From Saitoella complicata NRRL Y-17804 (Eukaryota; Ascomycota; Saitoellomycetes; Saitoellales; Saitoellaceae): a stretch of DNA of 64,000 nt. This document shows positions 1 to 10,634 of this stretch, piece by piece (position 1 is the stretch's first letter; each line of letters begins with the position of its first letter). Where the stretch lies: NCBI RefSeq assembly GCF_001661265.1, contig NW_017566994.1, positions 310,001-374,000 of the forward strand, given 5' to 3'. Both the position numbers and the translations under genes were made by a program. A model generated the notes under the pieces. The model worked only from the letters and a program-made list of their open reading frames with translations, searched no databases and had not been told where the DNA came from.

Positions 1-1913
1 GCTTGGAAGTCGATGTACGGAGTGTCGGCGGGTGGGCTGTACAGAAGAGTATGCTTGAAGGGTACCTGAGGGGTCTGTTGAGGAGGGAACGAGGGGCGTT
101 GATGGGCGTTTGTGAATTTTTGAGTACGGATGTGATTGAGAGGGGTGGGGTTGCTGCAACCACGATAGTCGAGGCGGCTGTGAGAGGGGGAGAGGTAGGG
201 AGGAAGGAGGGGTGGTTAAGTAAGAAGAGTAAGGGGTTCGGGGGGTGGAAGAGCCGGTGGTTCGTTCTCGAGGGCGGCGATATGAGGTACTATGATAAAC
301 CTGGTGGAACTGCAGGTAGTGCCATCAGGCTTTCTAGTGCACAGATTGCGAGACAGGCGACGAAGGATGCATCGAAGGAGAATACCCAAGATGAGAAGAA
401 AACAGAGGGGAAGGAGGGGTATAAACACGCCTTTATGATCTTGGAGAGTAAGAAGGTACGGCATATTCTCTGTGCCAACTCGGATGAAGAGAGAGAGGAG
501 TGGATCCGGATGTTGTTGCAGCATATTGATTTGGCGAATTCTCCCCTGCCTCTGATGTCCGAGAAAGCGGAGAAGGAGAAGGGAAAGAAAGCCGCTAAGA
601 CTAAGCAGGGGAGGCATGTGAGTGCCAATGAGGGCGCGCATGTGGGAGGGATGGTGGAGAGCGAGAGTATGAGGAGTATGTCGAGTACGTCGACGAGGAG
701 GGATGATGAGTTTGGCGTCGGGCTTGGGCGACCGGTTACGAGGGAGAGTGTGCTCGGGATAAGCTATGACCGGATGGTACAAGGTCAGCGTCCCTCGCCT
801 CATTCACGGTCAAAGTCCGTTGAGTCCGTGCCGCCACTACCGATTATGCCGCCTATCTTGCCGGAAGTCAAGGTCCAGGGGATTAGTGGACCGACGAATG
901 GGACGGTCATCACGGATGGATCGCAGTGGGGGAACATTCATGTTCGCGACGATGATTCCATCAAAACCAATGATGACAAGAAAGCCGCGGATAAACGGAT
1001 TAAGAAAAAGTCCTTTTGGGGATTCGGACATTCGAAGACACCACAACGGACTTCCTCGGACGCGAGCACGAATTCGACGCCGCCGGCGCAGAGGAGGGGT
1101 GGGCATGGTCCCGTGTTTGGGGTGACGCTAGAGGAGGCGATTGCCGTGTCAAGGCCGGTGAGGGATGATGTCCTGTTGCCAAATGTGGTGTACCGGTGCA
1201 TCGAGTACCTCGAGGCCAAGAACGCGGTTCTGGAGGAAGGGATTTATCGCCTGTCCGGGAGTTCCTCAGTCGTGAAGATGCTGAAGGAGAAGTTTGATAA
1301 GGAGGGGGATGCAGAGTTGTTTGGTGCGAAGGAGATGTACGATGTACATGCCGTCGCCGGCTTGTTGAAGCTGTATCTGAGGGAGTTGCCGGTGAGTGTG
1401 TTGACACGCGAACTGCATGTCGAGTTCTTGCAGGTGATCGGTGAGGTGGACGACTTGCCGGCACGAACAAGAGAGGTGAATCGACTCGTTCATCGACTAC
1501 CGCCTGCGAATTTCTCGTTGTTGAGAGTGTTGTGCGCGCATTTGATCAGGGTTGTGGAGAATTCAAATGTGAATAAGATGACGGCGAGGAATGTCGGGAT
1601 TGTGTTTTCGCCGACGTTGAATATTCCTGCGGGGGTGCTGACGTTGTTTCTGGGTGATTTCGAGGGAGTGTTCATGGAGGATGTGGATGCTCTTGCAGAC
1701 CTCGTACAGAATTATGACGAAGGATATGGTCAGAGCAGCCAGGAGCAGTATGCTGAGGGGCAGTATGATACGCGGAACCATGGAGGGTTACATGTTCCTA
1801 CCAGTCTGCGGGATGACCGGCGTTCGCGAAACAGACATTCGCACATTGTGGGAGGAGATCTTGGGTATGGGAACGGTGGATACGGCGGGAGATTACACAA
1901 CGTGTACGAGTGA
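1..1913 (+). CDS. BEM3: RhoGAP with PX remnant, PH and RhoGAP domains (BEM3-like), 5' end missing
   Basis: The reading frame is open from the window edge, so the N-terminus is missing. About 636 residues are visible. The first 45 look like the end of a PX domain (LEGYLRGLL...FLSTDV). A PH domain follows at about 69-174 (GWLSKKSKGFGGWKSRWFVL ... EREEWIRMLL), then a basic, Ser-rich disordered linker. A RhoGAP domain at about 373-555 carries the catalytic arginine finger in EEGIYRLSGSS. The order PX-PH-RhoGAP is that of yeast Bem3, which switches off Cdc42 at sites of polarised growth, so the role here is inferred as Cdc42/Rho inactivation at membranes. The C-terminal 80 residues are Gly/Tyr/Arg-rich tail. 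No intron is visible in this part. Other PX-PH-RhoGAP proteins are possible but less common in ascomycetes. Confidence 0.82.
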   Translation, partial: LEVDVRSVGGWAVQKSMLEGYLRGLLRRERGALMGVCEFLSTDVIERGGVAATTIVEAAVRGGEVGRKEGWLSKKSKGFGGWKSRWFVLEGGDMRYYDKPGGTAGSAIRLSSAQIARQATKDASKENTQDEKKTEGKEGYKHAFMILESKKVRHILCANSDEEREEWIRMLLQHIDLANSPLPLMSEKAEKEKGKKAAKTKQGRHVSANEGAHVGGMVESESMRSMSSTSTRRDDEFGVGLGRPVTRESVLGISYDRMVQGQRPSPHSRSKSVESVPPLPIMPPILPEVKVQGISGPTNGTVITDGSQWGNIHVRDDDSIKTNDDKKAADKRIKKKSFWGFGHSKTPQRTSSDASTNSTPPAQRRGGHGPVFGVTLEEAIAVSRPVRDDVLLPNVVYRCIEYLEAKNAVLEEGIYRLSGSSSVVKMLKEKFDKEGDAELFGAKEMYDVHAVAGLLKLYLRELPVSVLTRELHVEFLQVIGEVDDLPARTREVNRLVHRLPPANFSLLRVLCAHLIRVVENSNVNKMTARNVGIVFSPTLNIPAGVLTLFLGDFEGVFMEDVDALADLVQNYDEGYGQSSQEQYAEGQYDTRNHGGLHVPTSLRDDRRSRNRHSHIVGGDLGYGNGGYGGRLHNVYE

Positions 1914-2282: not shown

Positions 2283-3242
2283 ATGACACCGACTTTGGTC
2301 TCCTCACAAACCGGCGCGGCACAATTCCTCACCGTTCCCGGTCGAGGCACCGTCGGCAGAATACACACCCTCTCCTCCCAATACCCTGTCAAACTGATGT
2401 CGCCATCTCCACTACCATCTGCCAAATCACTCGTTATTCATGTTCTTTCGTACGGCGGTGGCTTGGTTCAAGGGGATAATGTCACAGTGCGCGGAACTGT
2501 CTCGACATCTTCCACCGTTGTCCTCACAACCCAAGGATTCACGAAAGTCTTCGTCGGTGGCCGTGGGTCAAAACAGAGCCTCGAAATCAAAGTCGGGAAG
2601 GGCGGAATATGTGCTTTACTACCTGATCCGGTACAGTGTTTCCGGGGGAGTTGCTACGTTCAGGATCAGGTCTTCGAGGTAGAGGTCGGAGGGAGTTTGT
2701 GCGTGTTGGATTGGGTATGTGATGGGCGAACGGGAGAGAGTTGGGAGTTTGAGAGGTTTTTGTCGAGGAATGAGGTTTGGGAGGTGCAGCCAGAGCCAGC
2801 CAGCAATGGGGATGGCACGACAAACGGAGATGCGACCACAAACGGAGATGCGACCACAAACGGAGAGTCAGACGAGAAAGCGAAAGGATCCCGAAGACGA
2901 CTAGTGATCAAAGACAACGTCCGCCTCGACGGATCAGTCCAACAACGGATGCTATCACCTCACTCCCCTCACCGGATGTATACAACCCTCGCAACCCTCA
3001 TCCTCCAAGGTCCCGCCTTCGACGCACTTTCCTCCTCCCTCCTCACCCGCTTCCGAAACGAAAAGGTCAATGTGCAGGAAACAAGTTTATGGACAGTTGC
3101 GAAGACTACGAGGGGGGCTACGGTTGTGAAAGTTGCAGCAGAGGGAGGGGTGGAGGAGTGTAGGAGGGTTATTTGGGGGTTGGTTGGAGAGGGCTTGGAA
3201 GAGTTGGTGGGGAGGGAGGGGGTTCGGGCGTTGGTTGAGTAG
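2283..3242 (+). CDS. ureD: urease accessory protein UreD
   Basis: A 319-residue protein with the UreD pattern: GRGTVGRIHTLSSQYPVKL near the N-terminus, the SYGGGLVQGDNV block, TQGFTKVF, and the DPVQCFRGSCYVQDQVFEV segment. UreD works with UreF and UreG to deliver nickel to apo-urease in the cytosol, so the organism should carry a nickel urease elsewhere. None of the partners is in this window. The start ATG follows an A-rich leader. A short Asn-Gly-Asp-Ala-Thr-Thr repeat (about residues 176-198) interrupts the domain, encoded by an 18-bp minisatellite. It probably forms a tolerated surface loop. Length fits fungal UreD proteins once this insert is allowed for. No intron. Confidence 0.88.
   Translation: MTPTLVSSQTGAAQFLTVPGRGTVGRIHTLSSQYPVKLMSPSPLPSAKSLVIHVLSYGGGLVQGDNVTVRGTVSTSSTVVLTTQGFTKVFVGGRGSKQSLEIKVGKGGICALLPDPVQCFRGSCYVQDQVFEVEVGGSLCVLDWVCDGRTGESWEFERFLSRNEVWEVQPEPASNGDGTTNGDATTNGDATTNGESDEKAKGSRRRLVIKDNVRLDGSVQQRMLSPHSPHRMYTTLATLILQGPAFDALSSSLLTRFRNEKVNVQETSLWTVAKTTRGATVVKVAAEGGVEECRRVIWGLVGEGLEELVGREGVRALVE
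2820..2873 (+). repeat. 18-bp minisatellite inside ureD
   Basis: Three tandem 18-bp units starting ACAAACGGAGATGCGACC (the last one diverged) encode repeated Asn-Gly-Asp-Ala-Thr-Thr. The unit is a multiple of three, so copy-number change would keep the frame. Confidence 0.85.
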
Positions 3243-4091: not shown

Positions 4092-7000
4092 CTACCTCTT
4101 CTCATCACTGGTGTCATAGCTCGAGTCGATGGCACCAAGGAACAGCTTCACCAACCAAACCTCCGGACTCAACTCGCACCCACTCTCCTTCCTCATCTGA
4201 TCCGCCTCCATCTCGTAGTTCGAAGTCACATCGACCCTGGCACCAACTTCGTGATGCTCGTCGAGCTCTTGGAGGAACTGGCGGGCTTTCATGTCGGTAC
4301 CAACTTGGCCAAACATGAGGTTGAGAGCACCCACACCGTACTGGTTGCCTTGGAAGAAGTGGTTTGCATCCCGAATGACGTTGAAGATGGTGTTGGAGTC
4401 CTCGCCTTGGGGTTGGCCGTCGGTGATGGTAATGATGAGGACGGGTTTGTGGAGCTGGTTTGCTCTTGCCCTAGAGAGAACCAAGGGCTCGAGGATTTTC
4501 GCTTTCAACTGCGTCCCGATCGGGGTCAATCCGCCGAACTTGACTTGAGAGATAACCTTGTCGGCATCGGCTTCGCTGCGGATATTGTCTCCCTTGATGT
4601 CGGAGTTGAAGAAACGGACTTGAATCCCGTCGTCGTCAAAAAGACTCGCGGCGAAAGCGACGTGGCTTAAGATCATCTTCATATCATCCAACCTCTCGCC
4701 CTTTTCCTCGAAGACCATGGAGCCCGAATCGTCGATGAACAAGATGACGTCGAAGAGTGCCAACTTGCAGATGTCAACAGCTATCTCGGAAGGAAGCTTC
4801 CATTTGGCGATCAACTCTGGGAGACGGTGGGCGGCGCGGGAAGCAACTTCGCGGATACGCTGTTGGTATGCGTGAGGAGGGTAAAAAGCCTCAAGATGCT
4901 GGTCTTTGATGCAACGCTCCAGAGCGCCTTCAACGGACGTAACAAAGTTGATGGGGTGGCTGTTGCCTCCATGGGATGGATGAGGGGTGTAGTGCTGAGG
5001 ATGGGAGAGGGAGCGATCGCCTCCTCCTTCTCCGATGTTCGCGAAGAGCCCGGCCGCGGTGCTGATCCCTTGGGCGACGCCCACGACATCCGTGAACAGA
5101 TTGCGAGATCCGGTATGCGGACAAGTGCCAGGTTCGTGCCAGCACGAGCATGATACACACTGGAAGCGCTCGGGCCCATGGTGGACTCCGTGCCCAGCGG
5201 GACAAGGTTCGTGCCAGTAAGAGTGGTACTGCGTACAGTGCGGGCAAATACCCGGAGGATAGCGGATAGGCGCACCATAGTTGTCCGTAGGGATTGGACC
5301 GTGAGAAGAGCCACCTCCGTGGCCATGTTGACCTCCAGGGTGCCCTCCATGTATTTGGGGGCAATGGCCGGGAGGATGGTTTTGGTGACAATGTCTGCAA
5401 AGGATCACCGTGGGACAGGCCTGGTGTGGGGGGTGGTATTCACGACAGCGAGTGCAGATTATGACGACTGTGTCGCTGTGAGGAGGGCAAGGGCCGGGAG
5501 GATGCGGCTTCTGGCACGTATGACAAGGACAAGGGCCAGGCGGGTGCGGTTTCTGGCATGAATAGCAATGGATGGGGGTGGGGCAGGCTTCATGCGGGGG
5601 GTGAGGGTGTTGGCAGCGCACACAAATTGTCGTGGTCGTGTTGACGTGAGGAGGGCAAGGGCCAGGCGGGTGCGGCTTCTGGCACGTATGACAAGGNNNN
5701 NNNNNNNNNNNNNNNNNNNNNNNNNNNNNNNNNNNNNNNNNNNNNNNNNNNNNNNNNNNNNNNNNNNNNNNNNNNNNNNNNNNNNNNNNNNNNNNNNNNN
5801 NNNNNNNNNNNNNNNNNNNNNNNNNNNNNNNNNNNNNNNNNNNNNNNNNNNNNNNNNNNNNNNNNNNNNNNNNNNNNNNNNNNNNNNNNNNNNNNNNNNN
5901 NNNNNNNNNNNNNNNNNNNNNNNNNNNNNNNNNNNNNNNNNNNNNNNNNNNNNNNNNNNNNNNNNNNNNNNNNNNNNNNNNNNNNNNNNNNNNNNNNNNN
6001 NNNNNNNNNNNNNNNNNNNNNNNNNNNNNNNNNNNNNNNNNNNNNNNNNNNNNNNNNNNNNNNNNNNNNNNNNNNNNNNNNNNNNNNNNNNNNNNNNNNN
6101 NNNNNNNNNNNNNNNNNNNNNNNNNNNNNNNNNNNNNNNNNNNNNNNNNNNNNNNNNNNNNNNNNNNNNNNGGGGTGGGACAGGCTTCATGCGGGGGGTG
6201 AGGGCGTTGGCAGCGCACACAAATTGTCGTGGTCGTGTTGACGTGAGGAGGGCAAGGGCCAGGCGGGTGCGGCTTCTGGCACGTATGGCAGTGAATGGGA
6301 GCCGGGGGGTGGACGGGCTGGCAAGGTTGTTGCGGGTGGTGGTACTGATGGCAGCGGGTGCAGATCACGACAGTCGTACTCCCATTATGACAAGGTCCAG
6401 GTGGGTGAGGCTTCTGGCAGGTACCACAGTGGTGTGGAGGCTGAACCGGCGGGCAGGGCTGCTGCGGCGGGTGATACTGGTAGCACCGAGTACAGATCAC
6501 GACGATCGTGGTGTTGTGAGGAGGACAAGGCCCAGGAAGGTGGGGCTTCTGACAGGTGCCACAGTGGGAGGGAGGGTGGCTCGAGGGGCAAGGACCAGGC
6601 GGATGGTACTGATTGCAGCGAACGCAGATCACGCCCGTGGTACTGTGCGAGGGAGGGGGACAAGGACCCGGAAGGTGACAGCGGCGGCATTGCTGACAAG
6701 TGACACGCTCGGTTACATGCGTAGCACAGGTGTGAGTGGGCGGGCAACACACGTGCGGCGGATGGGGGATCGTACAGTGGATGCAAGTCCCCCCTCCGTG
6801 GACGACCGGGTTCGGACAATGTCCTGGCGTATGGAACCTGTAACATTGGTTGCACTTGCAGGGCTCGGGACCGTGATGGACGCCGTGGCCGTGAGGGCAA
6901 GGTTCGAAGTGGTAGTTGTGGTGTTGGGTGCAGTGAGGACAGACGCCCGGGGGGAATTGGGTGTGGACACCACCGCCGTAGTACGTGTGAGATTCGCCGG

Positions 7001-7280
7001 AGGGATTGTGCATGCCGGTAGGATGACCTCCCGGGTGGGGAGAATGGCTTCCGTACGGGTTAGGCGAATGGTGTCCATGATGTCCATGGCCGTGTTGAGG
7101 GTGCGGCGAGTGACTGCCTCCATGAGGACTAGGCGTTCCGCGATACCCCGGCTGAGGCGAGTGCGGCTTATTGTACGGGTCATAATGCTGTCCCGAACCC
7201 TGTTGCTCGGATTGCTCGTAGTTGATGTGAATATGAACGTCAGGCGCCGCAGACGACTGGAGTTTATTGGCGAGGGTCAT
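4092..7280 (-). CDS. VWA-domain protein with a tandem CX2CX3HX4-6C mini-knuckle array (interrupted by assembly gap)
   Basis: Single-exon frame of about 1062 residues including the gap. Residues 1-110 are a His/Pro/Gly/Ser-rich tail. From about 112 to 740 comes an array of Cys/His units with spacing C-X2-C-X3-H-X4-6-C (for example CHTCQKPHPPGPC, CVRCQRPHPPHEAC); I count 19 outside the gap. A C-terminal VWA domain (about 844-1040) keeps the metal-site residues: DDSGSM, the Thr of GGLTPIGT and TDGQP. There is no signal peptide or membrane segment, so it is probably intracellular. VWA domains usually mediate protein contacts through a bound divalent ion. The array resembles retroviral-type zinc knuckles (CX2CX4HX4C) with one residue fewer before His, so zinc binding is inference. 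The closest recognisable part is the fungal VWA domain. The function of the whole is unknown to me. Confidence 0.8.
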   Translation of the reverse strand: MTLANKLQSSAAPDVHIHINYEQSEQQGSGQHYDPYNKPHSPQPGYRGTPSPHGGSHSPHPQHGHGHHGHHSPNPYGSHSPHPGGHPTGMHNPSGESHTYYGGGVHTQFPPGVCPHCTQHHNYHFEPCPHGHGVHHGPEPCKCNQCYRFHTPGHCPNPVVHGGGTCIHCTIPHPPHVCCPPTHTCATHVTERVTCQQCRRCHLPGPCPPPSHSTTGVICVRCNQYHPPGPCPSSHPPSHCGTCQKPHLPGPCPPHNTTIVVICTRCYQYHPPQQPCPPVQPPHHCGTCQKPHPPGPCHNGSTTVVICTRCHQYHHPQQPCQPVHPPAPIHCHTCQKPHPPGPCPPHVNTTTTICVRCQRPHPPHEACPTXXXXXXXXXXXXXXXXXXXXXXXXXXXXXXXXXXXXXXXXXXXXXXXXXXXXXXXXXXXXXXXXXXXXXXXXXXXXXXXXXXXXXXXXXXXXXXXXXXXXXXXXXXXXXXXXXXXXXXXXXXXXXXXXXXXXXXXXXXXXXXXXXXXXXXXXXXXXXXXPCHTCQKPHPPGPCPPHVNTTTTICVRCQHPHPPHEACPTPIHCYSCQKPHPPGPCPCHTCQKPHPPGPCPPHSDTVVIICTRCREYHPPHQACPTVILCRHCHQNHPPGHCPQIHGGHPGGQHGHGGGSSHGPIPTDNYGAPIRYPPGICPHCTQYHSYWHEPCPAGHGVHHGPERFQCVSCSCWHEPGTCPHTGSRNLFTDVVGVAQGISTAAGLFANIGEGGGDRSLSHPQHYTPHPSHGGNSHPINFVTSVEGALERCIKDQHLEAFYPPHAYQQRIREVASRAAHRLPELIAKWKLPSEIAVDICKLALFDVILFIDDSGSMVFEEKGERLDDMKMILSHVAFAASLFDDDGIQVRFFNSDIKGDNIRSEADADKVISQVKFGGLTPIGTQLKAKILEPLVLSRARANQLHKPVLIITITDGQPQGEDSNTIFNVIRDANHFFQGNQYGVGALNLMFGQVGTDMKARQFLQELDEHHEVGARVDVTSNYEMEADQMRKESGCELSPEVWLVKLFLGAIDSSYDTSDEKR
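5430..6700 (-). repeat. coding tandem repeat, about 126 bp per unit
   Basis: The best-conserved units on both sides of the gap are about 42 codons long and each carry two knuckles, one with H-X4-C and one with H-X5-C, joined by a Thr-rich linker (NTTTTI). Units become more diverged towards both ends of the array. Confidence 0.75.
5697..6171. other. assembly gap, 475 N
   Basis: The N run lies inside the knuckle array of the VWA gene. The sequences on its two sides are near-copies of each other over about 110 bp, and the reading frame agrees on both sides, so a tandem repeat that could not be assembled is the likely cause. Confidence 0.97.
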
Positions 7281-9163: not shown

Positions 9164-10000
9164 ATGACTCCTCCACCAGTATCGCACATCCCTCCGGCGC
9201 CCTCCTCGGAAAACATGACGGAGACCGAGGGCGAGAACCCTACACAGCTTGCGCTCGACACTGCAGCCCCCCTAAACCCCGCCTCCCACCTCCTCAAAGA
9301 CGGCGCCGGTCCATCGCGACCAAGCACCCCCTACACCTCAACCCCCCCCGTCGACCCCTCCAACGGCCTCTCCTGGCCCGCCCACGGCACCCTCTCCCGC
9401 CGACACGAAACCCCCACCCAACGCACCACCCGTATCGAAAACATTTCGACCCATATAACCTCGATTTTGTCCAATTTAGGCGAAGACCCGAGTCGTGAGG
9501 GGTTGTTGAAAACTCCGACACGGTTTGCGGAGGCTATCGATTTCTTTACGAGGGGGTACGAGGTTGATTTGAAGGATATCGTGAATGATGCGATTTTCGA
9601 GGAGGATCATGATGAGATGGTTGTCGTAAGGGATATTCCGGTGTTCAGTATGTGCGAACACCATCTGGTGCCGTTTACGGGCCACATCCACATCGGCTAC
9701 ATCCCAAACCGCCGCGTCGTCGGCCTCTCCAAACTCGCCCGGATCGCAGAGATGTTTTCCCGCCGTCTCCAAGTACAGGAACGTCTCACTAAACAAGTCG
9801 CGTTGGCGATCCAAGAGATTTTGGCACCGCAGGGGGTTGGGGTGGTGATGGAGGCGAGCCATTTGTGTATGGTGATGAGGGGGGTACAGAAACCGGGGGC
9901 GACGACGGTTACCAGTGCTATGTTGGGCGTGTTTAGGGAGGGGGGGAAGACGAGGGAGGAGTTCTTGAGTTTTATTAGGGATGGGTCGAGCAGAAGATAG
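9164..10000 (+). CDS. FOL2: GTP cyclohydrolase I
   Basis: 278 residues. It converts GTP to 7,8-dihydroneopterin triphosphate, the first step towards folate and tetrahydrobiopterin-type pterins, as a cytosolic homodecamer. The catalytic domain spans about 90-275 and starts with the helix [25 protein letters not shown]. Zinc ligands are visible as Cys164 and His167 in CEHHLVPF and Cys235 in HLCMVMRG. The GLSKLARI and [10 protein letters not shown] blocks are also typical. The first 85 residues are a Pro/Ser/Thr-rich extension with no domain, common in fungal homologues. Single exon; the ATG at 9164 is the first in frame. Confidence 0.95.
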
Positions 10001-10634
10001 GCCGCGACCGAGGAACGAGGTCGACGGAGGAGAGGAGGCCTATCGAGGCTGCGATGAGGTTGCATCCTTCTCTACAGCTACAGTTTTTGTCTTTTTGCTT
10101 TCCGGGTGTTCAGGCGTACGATTGGTCTTTAACAGATTAGGGCATAATACACAAATGGCGGGCATTCAACAGGCCTGGCCCCAATACTCCTTCTCCACTC
10201 TCTCTTGTCATTTTGTTTTTGACGTAACGTAGATAAATAAGGGTATCAGTGGGATTCGAACTCGTGCCCTGTGCACGGACCCCCGGGAGCTCAAGAAGGA
10301 TGGACGGCATTAGCTCGGTGCGGGGAGCCGGCGGGGATGAACGAAAAACAAAACACCAAACCCTGCTGTCATCAACATTCCCAGCGACAGTCTTTTGGTT
10401 AGCATTTACTCAGCTTTAGAACCGTGATAAGTCGCAACGACGGCGTCTCTACACCGCCAATACCCCCGGTCCCGGTCATCCTCGCTCTCTATATCTTATG
10501 ACCCCGACCTAACTTCCGACCCACGGCAGCATACTGTTAAGAACGAACCACAGGCGTCGATAACGACTTTTTTCTTCATCCTGGCGCTAGGCATTTTGTT
10601 GGAGGTCCTCACCTTCGTTGGGTGGGTTTTGAGA
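10001..10634. other. 634-bp spacer with an orphan tRNA B-box-like motif
   Basis: The spacer lies between GTP cyclohydrolase and the WG-repeat gene, both on the plus strand. The minus strand at 10243-10265 carries GAGTTCGAATCCC, close to the pol III B box, but no complete cloverleaf could be built around it. The frame of the downstream gene stays open and hydrophobic above its first ATG, so an upstream exon is possible. Confidence 0.45.

Follow-up and report, generated by a model that had tools for sequence, protein, structure and literature searches.

A tandem CX2CX3HX4-6C mini-knuckle array joined to a VWA domain in the ascomycete Saitoella complicata

A gene of the ascomycete Saitoella complicata NRRL Y-17804 joins a long run of miniature Cys/His units to a C-terminal VWA domain, which raises the question of what kind of protein is built from two such parts. 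The gene lies in a stretch of 64,000 nucleotides (the window; positions 310,001 to 374,000 of contig NW_017566994.1), and its units form the longest CX2CX3HX4-6C mini-knuckle array that we have met. Here, the frame, the units and their codons, and the relatives of both parts are used to weigh the explanations of this architecture.

Architecture of the array gene

The array gene occupies one frame on the minus strand, running from an ATG at 7280 to a stop at 4092, and encodes 1062 residues, 158 of them read as X, plus the stop. The range 4092-7280 marked in the earlier note on this DNA is thus the entire frame, and two paralogues from this genome have N-termini that agree with the start codon. 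In window coordinates, the gene is composed of the following features:

4092..7280, minus strand: whole open frame, no intron needed (translation; 475 N inside)
7260..7280, minus strand: motif MTLANKL (by eye, without a significance test)
6942..7217, minus strand: His/Gly/Pro/Ser-rich stretch without Cys, ahead of unit 1 (sequence)
6816..6941, minus strand: first terminal module, units 1-2 (pattern scan)
6180..6785, minus strand: units 3-11 (pattern scan)
5697..6171, no strand: assembly gap of 475 N, the frame remaining open across it
5361..5693, minus strand: units 12-17 (pattern scan)
5121..5246, minus strand: second terminal module, units 18-19 (pattern scan)
4095..4997, minus strand: C-terminal region common to the paralogues, including the VWA domain (sequence comparison)
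4719..4733, minus strand: MIDAS motif DxSxS, here DDSGS, residues 850-854 (sequence)
4362..4751, minus strand: VWA domain, PF10138 vWA-TerF-like (Pfam)

The gap is probably an unresolved repeat that hides further units, since its flanks are identical at 116 of 119 bases, and the unit number is a lower bound that counts the 19 units visible outside 5697-6171. Ahead of the array, residues 1-105 contain 17.1% His and 0% Cys. The best 19-residue hydropathy within the first 40 residues is 0.18, and over the whole protein hydropathy peaks in the 19 residues that start at residue 831, within the C-terminal region. Because the N-terminus is not hydrophobic, the protein is likely intracellular. A motif scan of the 801 bases upstream gave no Zap1-type zinc element at up to one mismatch. 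Taken as raw counts without a background, the same bases hold three Loz1-like places (one mismatch each), one exact match each to Ace1/Amt1-like, MRE-like and GATA-like motifs, two exact STRE-like matches, and HSE-like ones with one mismatch.

Five neighbouring frames were also scanned, two of which had no match and three of which were identified:

3-1913, plus strand: PH and RhoGAP protein, cut by the window start
2283-3242, plus strand: UreD urease accessory protein (PF01774, E 1.7e-45)
9164-10000, plus strand: GTP cyclohydrolase I (PF01227, E 2.5e-74)

UreD, which we take to be a nickel-enzyme maturation factor, is the nearest identified gene on its side and is convergent with the array gene, a placement that is probably due to chance. 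A tRNA T-loop-like motif was noticed by eye on the minus strand at about 10230-10330, and neither ARAGORN (bacterial code) nor Rfam (gathering thresholds) found anything in the window.

Unit spacing and constraint on the ligands

A pattern scan of the frame finds exactly 19 visible CX2CX3HX(4-6)C units, 12 with X4, five with X5 and two (units 1 and 18) with X6. Eleven lie on the N-terminal side of the gap and eight on the C-terminal side. When the 468 known residues of positions 100-725 were shuffled 2000 times, the mean was 0.425 units and the maximum was 4, which bears out the proposal of at least 19 units of common Cys/His spacing outside the gap. Scanning the protein with 2, 4 or 5 residues ahead of His gives 0, 1 and 0 matches. 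With 19 matches at three residues and one at four, the units are indeed one residue shorter before His than the CX2CX4HX4C knuckle, as had been claimed. The visible Cys residues are concentrated here (62 of 65 within residues 106-720), giving the array a Cys content of 13.6%, and its charge is mildly basic, with 22 K+R against 11 D+E in 457 residues.

The units share further preferences in their sequence. Pro directly follows the last Cys in 16 of 19 units and stands within two residues past His in 17 of 19, an aromatic residue occupies position 2 in one unit of 19, and Gly precedes His in none. From unit 5 to unit 16, CxRCxxxHxPxx(x)C alternates with CxxCQKPHxPGPC (CxTCQKPHxPGPC among units 3-11), with one doubling at units 14-15. 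The two ends of the array also resemble each other, as the stretch around units 1-2, taken with a few preceding residues, is identical to that around units 18-19 at 32 of 53 positions. The spacers are mostly Pro-rich and measure 10-16 residues between units 1 and 5 and 1-10 between units 5 and 17, the gap aside; a spacer of 38 residues follows unit 17, and 14 residues separate units 18 and 19. A single-sequence structure model of units 4-11 is poor, with a mean pLDDT of 45, and lends no support to a knuckle fold.

The ligands of the mini-knuckle units are under constraint. Ligand identity is given by construction, as the units were chosen by their ligand pattern, and the codons behind it vary. 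The first Cys is encoded by TGT in ten units and TGC in nine, the last Cys likewise by TGT in ten and TGC in nine, and His by CAC in 14 and CAT in five. In pairwise comparison of the units (171 pairs), their ligand codons show 328 synonymous differences (and, by construction, 0 nonsynonymous ones), a comparison in which the counts alone are readable, because two-fold codons contribute one third of a site each and the site-corrected pS exceeds 1. No broken unit was seen in the spacers between the 19 units. The five residues lying between ligands are hardly constrained, with a pN/pS of 0.81 over the 19 units. For six A-type and six B-type units, subsets chosen by the analyst that cover 12 of the 19, pN/pS across ten codons is 0.10 and 0.27, respectively, and becomes 0.22 and 0.66 when the five non-ligand codons alone are counted.

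Family searches and paralogues

Profile searches of Pfam and the PDB returned nothing beyond chance for the units. The zf-CCHC model PF00098 has 24 matches listed in the genome, none of them on C3, the contig of the array gene. When five modules of two units each, together 10 of the 19 units, were compared with it at E up to 10, none matched. Ribosomal_L32p (E 0.093) and DUF2256 (E 9.1) each appeared for one of the five modules and were taken as chance, as was a ribonuclease match in the PDB (E 0.29) on the N-terminal side of the array. The PDB gave no match for the modules or for the C-terminal half, and two NCBIfam names at E 0.2 fell far below their cut-offs. Membership of zf-CCHC was rejected on spacing, as 19 matches have three residues before His and one has four. 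A metallothionein was set aside for a protein of 1062 residues with 13.6% Cys in its array and no metallothionein model at E up to 10, and a copine because the copine A and C2 models are absent among the families at E up to 10 for both parts outside the gap. The earlier note had named the placing of the units in a known zinc-binding family by profile as one result that would speak against it, and the Pfam scans place them in none.

Three prokaryotic and viral collections, which have little bearing on fungi, were also searched. Among the viral contigs there were no confirmed relatives (10 pattern stretches for the array, 6 for the C-terminal region and 55 for the modules), and among the genome contigs none was confirmed either (353 stretches for the VWA alignment and 62 for the modules). 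The phage collection held no relative of the N-terminal side of the array. Within the S. complicata genome, a protein search found no second array locus, the repeat counts there being lower bounds. Five classical CCHC knuckles lie in one frame of 203 residues at G000:C10:317859-318281, perhaps a Gis2/CNBP-type protein.

The C-terminal region is VWA-like. Its match to PF10138 is borderline, scoring 29.3 bits against a cut-off of 29.4 in one scan and 31.9 bits, above the cut-off, in another, while PF00092 VWA stays below its cut-off (15.9 against 23.8 bits). The MIDAS is complete as DxSxS...T...D, with the codons of T919 and D954 beginning at 4526 and 4421, and it is invariant in all four aligned sequences. 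Together with the PF10138 match at the cut-off, this agrees with the earlier reading of an intact VWA metal-site domain. PDB matches obtained with the VWA profile are weak (integrin alpha-X, E 0.036; ITIH1, E 0.2), both of which we take to be VWA proteins, and a single-sequence structure model of the domain (mean pLDDT 39.4) is too poor to inform on a Rossmann-like fold.

Searching the genome with the C-terminal part returned four places, namely the gene itself and one locus on each of the contigs C7 (L002), C12 (L003) and C9 (L004). Two of these loci encode proteins that carry a different arm ahead of the shared region:

L002, 1054-2421: VWA-region protein with a Q/P/G/Y-rich, prion-like arm
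L003, 941-2373: VWA-region protein with a Q/P/G/Y-rich, prion-like arm (gene with a putative intron of 53 bases)

Over aligned positions of the C-terminal region, the array protein is 63% identical to L002 and about 50% (49-50%) to L003, and L003 is 51% identical to L002. L004 is a remoter VWA protein (29% identical; E 2.1e-15 against the array protein). Against the VWA models, L004 passes the PF00092 cut-off at 27.2 bits, L002 stays below that of PF10138, and L003 has no match at E up to 1. The arms of L002 and L003 span 168 and 175 residues, start motif counted, with no Cys and with 25.6% and 19.4% Gln, respectively. By eye, the starts are alike (MGLASKL in L002, MGLANKL in L003 and MTLANKL in the array protein), and VHVHVN in L002 resembles VHIHIN in the array protein, a motif absent from the residues printed for L003. 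This likeness at the N-terminus covers few residues, and residues 1-110 used as a query returned the array gene itself and no paralogue.

L002 and L003 therefore resemble the array protein in a homologous C-terminal region and in the first seven residues, but have a Cys-free Q/P/G/Y-rich arm where it has the array. The different arms of the paralogues suggest that the middle arm has been exchanged within a small VWA family and that the array is the product of such an exchange. Because L003 is less similar in its C-terminal region to the array protein or to L002 than these two are to one another (63%), the simplest history by parsimony, judged from three sequences, would be a gain of the array in the array gene, with the Q/P/G/Y arm as the older state.

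A proposed mechanism, its rivals and known systems

In our assessment, the protein is best explained as an intracellular VWA adaptor in which zinc-folded mini-knuckles took the place of a disordered arm, a reading to which we give about an even chance. We infer that the metal is zinc, that each unit binds one ion of it, that the protein binds partners and acts as a scaffold, and that the exchange ran in this order. The array protein would belong, as an adaptor inside the cell, to a small VWA family of fungi. Its VWA domain with the intact MIDAS would dock onto a protein partner, and the short motif at its N-terminus may be an element for targeting or assembly that the family shares. The middle arm, Q/P/G/Y-rich and probably disordered in the two paralogues, would instead hold at least 19 miniature C3H1 sites in the array protein. 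Each unit would fold round a single zinc ion into a turn, with CX2C holding it and His and the final Cys closing it, and the sites would be set apart by the mostly Pro-rich spacers of 1-16 residues (one of 38). Such an arm would be long, multivalent and stiffened by metal; it would bring partners together, and its folding would depend on how much zinc the cell supplies. A further-reaching form, in which one member of a VWA adaptor family swapped a prion-like disordered arm for zinc-folded beads on a string and thereby put its docking head under zinc control, we consider doubtful.

Several other explanations account for part of these observations. If the units were nucleic-acid-binding knuckles as in LINE gag/ORF1 proteins, the gene would encode an adaptor that binds RNA multivalently and carries a VWA domain. 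The spacings CX2CX3HX4C and CX2CX3HX6C are known from those proteins, units 1 and 18 are of the X6 form, and the array is mildly basic. Classical RNA-binding knuckles are marked by an aromatic second residue and Gly before His, but the array has the former in one of 19 units and the latter in none, and the array gene is not among the 24 genome places of PF00098; we regard this explanation as unlikely. A metal store or buffer, positioned in the cell by the VWA domain and binding surplus zinc, copper or cadmium through the array and the His-rich N-terminus, would make sense of the 62 of 65 visible Cys within residues 106-720 and the 17.1% His of residues 1-105. However, metallothioneins contain roughly 30% Cys and the array lies below that level, the four ligands keep a fixed spacing while the residues between them vary freely, which argues for sites that fold separately, and the single Ace1/Amt1-like and MRE-like matches upstream decide nothing. 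The low Cys content and fixed spacing thus favor separate folded sites over a metallothionein, and a store appears improbable. The earlier proposal of a "large metal-loaded intracellular scaffold or metal store" is accordingly retained in part: an intracellular place fits the N-terminus and a scaffold is the best reading, with the store as the weaker half.

The array could also be a recent and dispensable expansion, a lineage-specific repeat with little function of its own beside a VWA part that alone matters. Its near-identical copies (116 of 119 bases across the gap) point to recent duplication, and the protein search found the array nowhere else in the genome. Nonetheless, none of the 19 visible units is broken despite many synonymous changes in the ligand codons, and we consider such an expansion very unlikely. 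Should the units of the proposed zinc-folded adaptor indeed bind zinc, they would represent a compact tandem metal-site repeat outside every Pfam model scanned, and the paralogues would provide a natural experiment in which a homologous head carries either a disordered or a metal-folded arm. The units could also yield minimal 13-residue zinc modules for protein design.

The CX2CX3HX4C spacing is not new. Neither a long CX2CX3HX4-6C array nor its fusion to a VWA domain was found in the open-access literature searched, partly as titles and the starts of abstracts. The claim that no described family repeats this spacing so many times thus stands for the long array, and the spacing itself has been described in single units. 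For LINE gag/ORF1 proteins, namely those of helena and its kin and of locust elements, the literature gives both CX2CX3HX4C and CX2CX3HX6C (PMC2330053, PMC3391268), spacings shared with the array; in the passages that describe them, one unit of each kind stands beside a CX2CX4HX4C, and neither a long array nor a VWA domain is mentioned. The CX2CX3HX4C example printed in the locust paper really has four residues before His. CX2CX3HX4C is also printed for dinoflagellate RRM-DEAD helicases (PMC12787238), and the formula occurs in two HERV-W papers. The zf-CCHC family (PF00098) resembles the array in its C3H1 ligand order, its short unit and the presence at times of several units per protein, whereas the array has one residue fewer before His, Gly before His in none of 19 units, and no match to the model. 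With the vWA-TerF-like and VWA families, the array protein has in common a PF10138 match at the cut-off and a full MIDAS, but it is the product of a fungal gene with an N-terminal Cys/His array. The nearest functional parallel, drawn as an analogy and with no claim of kinship, may be the bacterial TerY-P modules, in which a VWA protein is paired with a kinase bearing a zinc ribbon and metal sensing has been hypothesised (PMC11090510).
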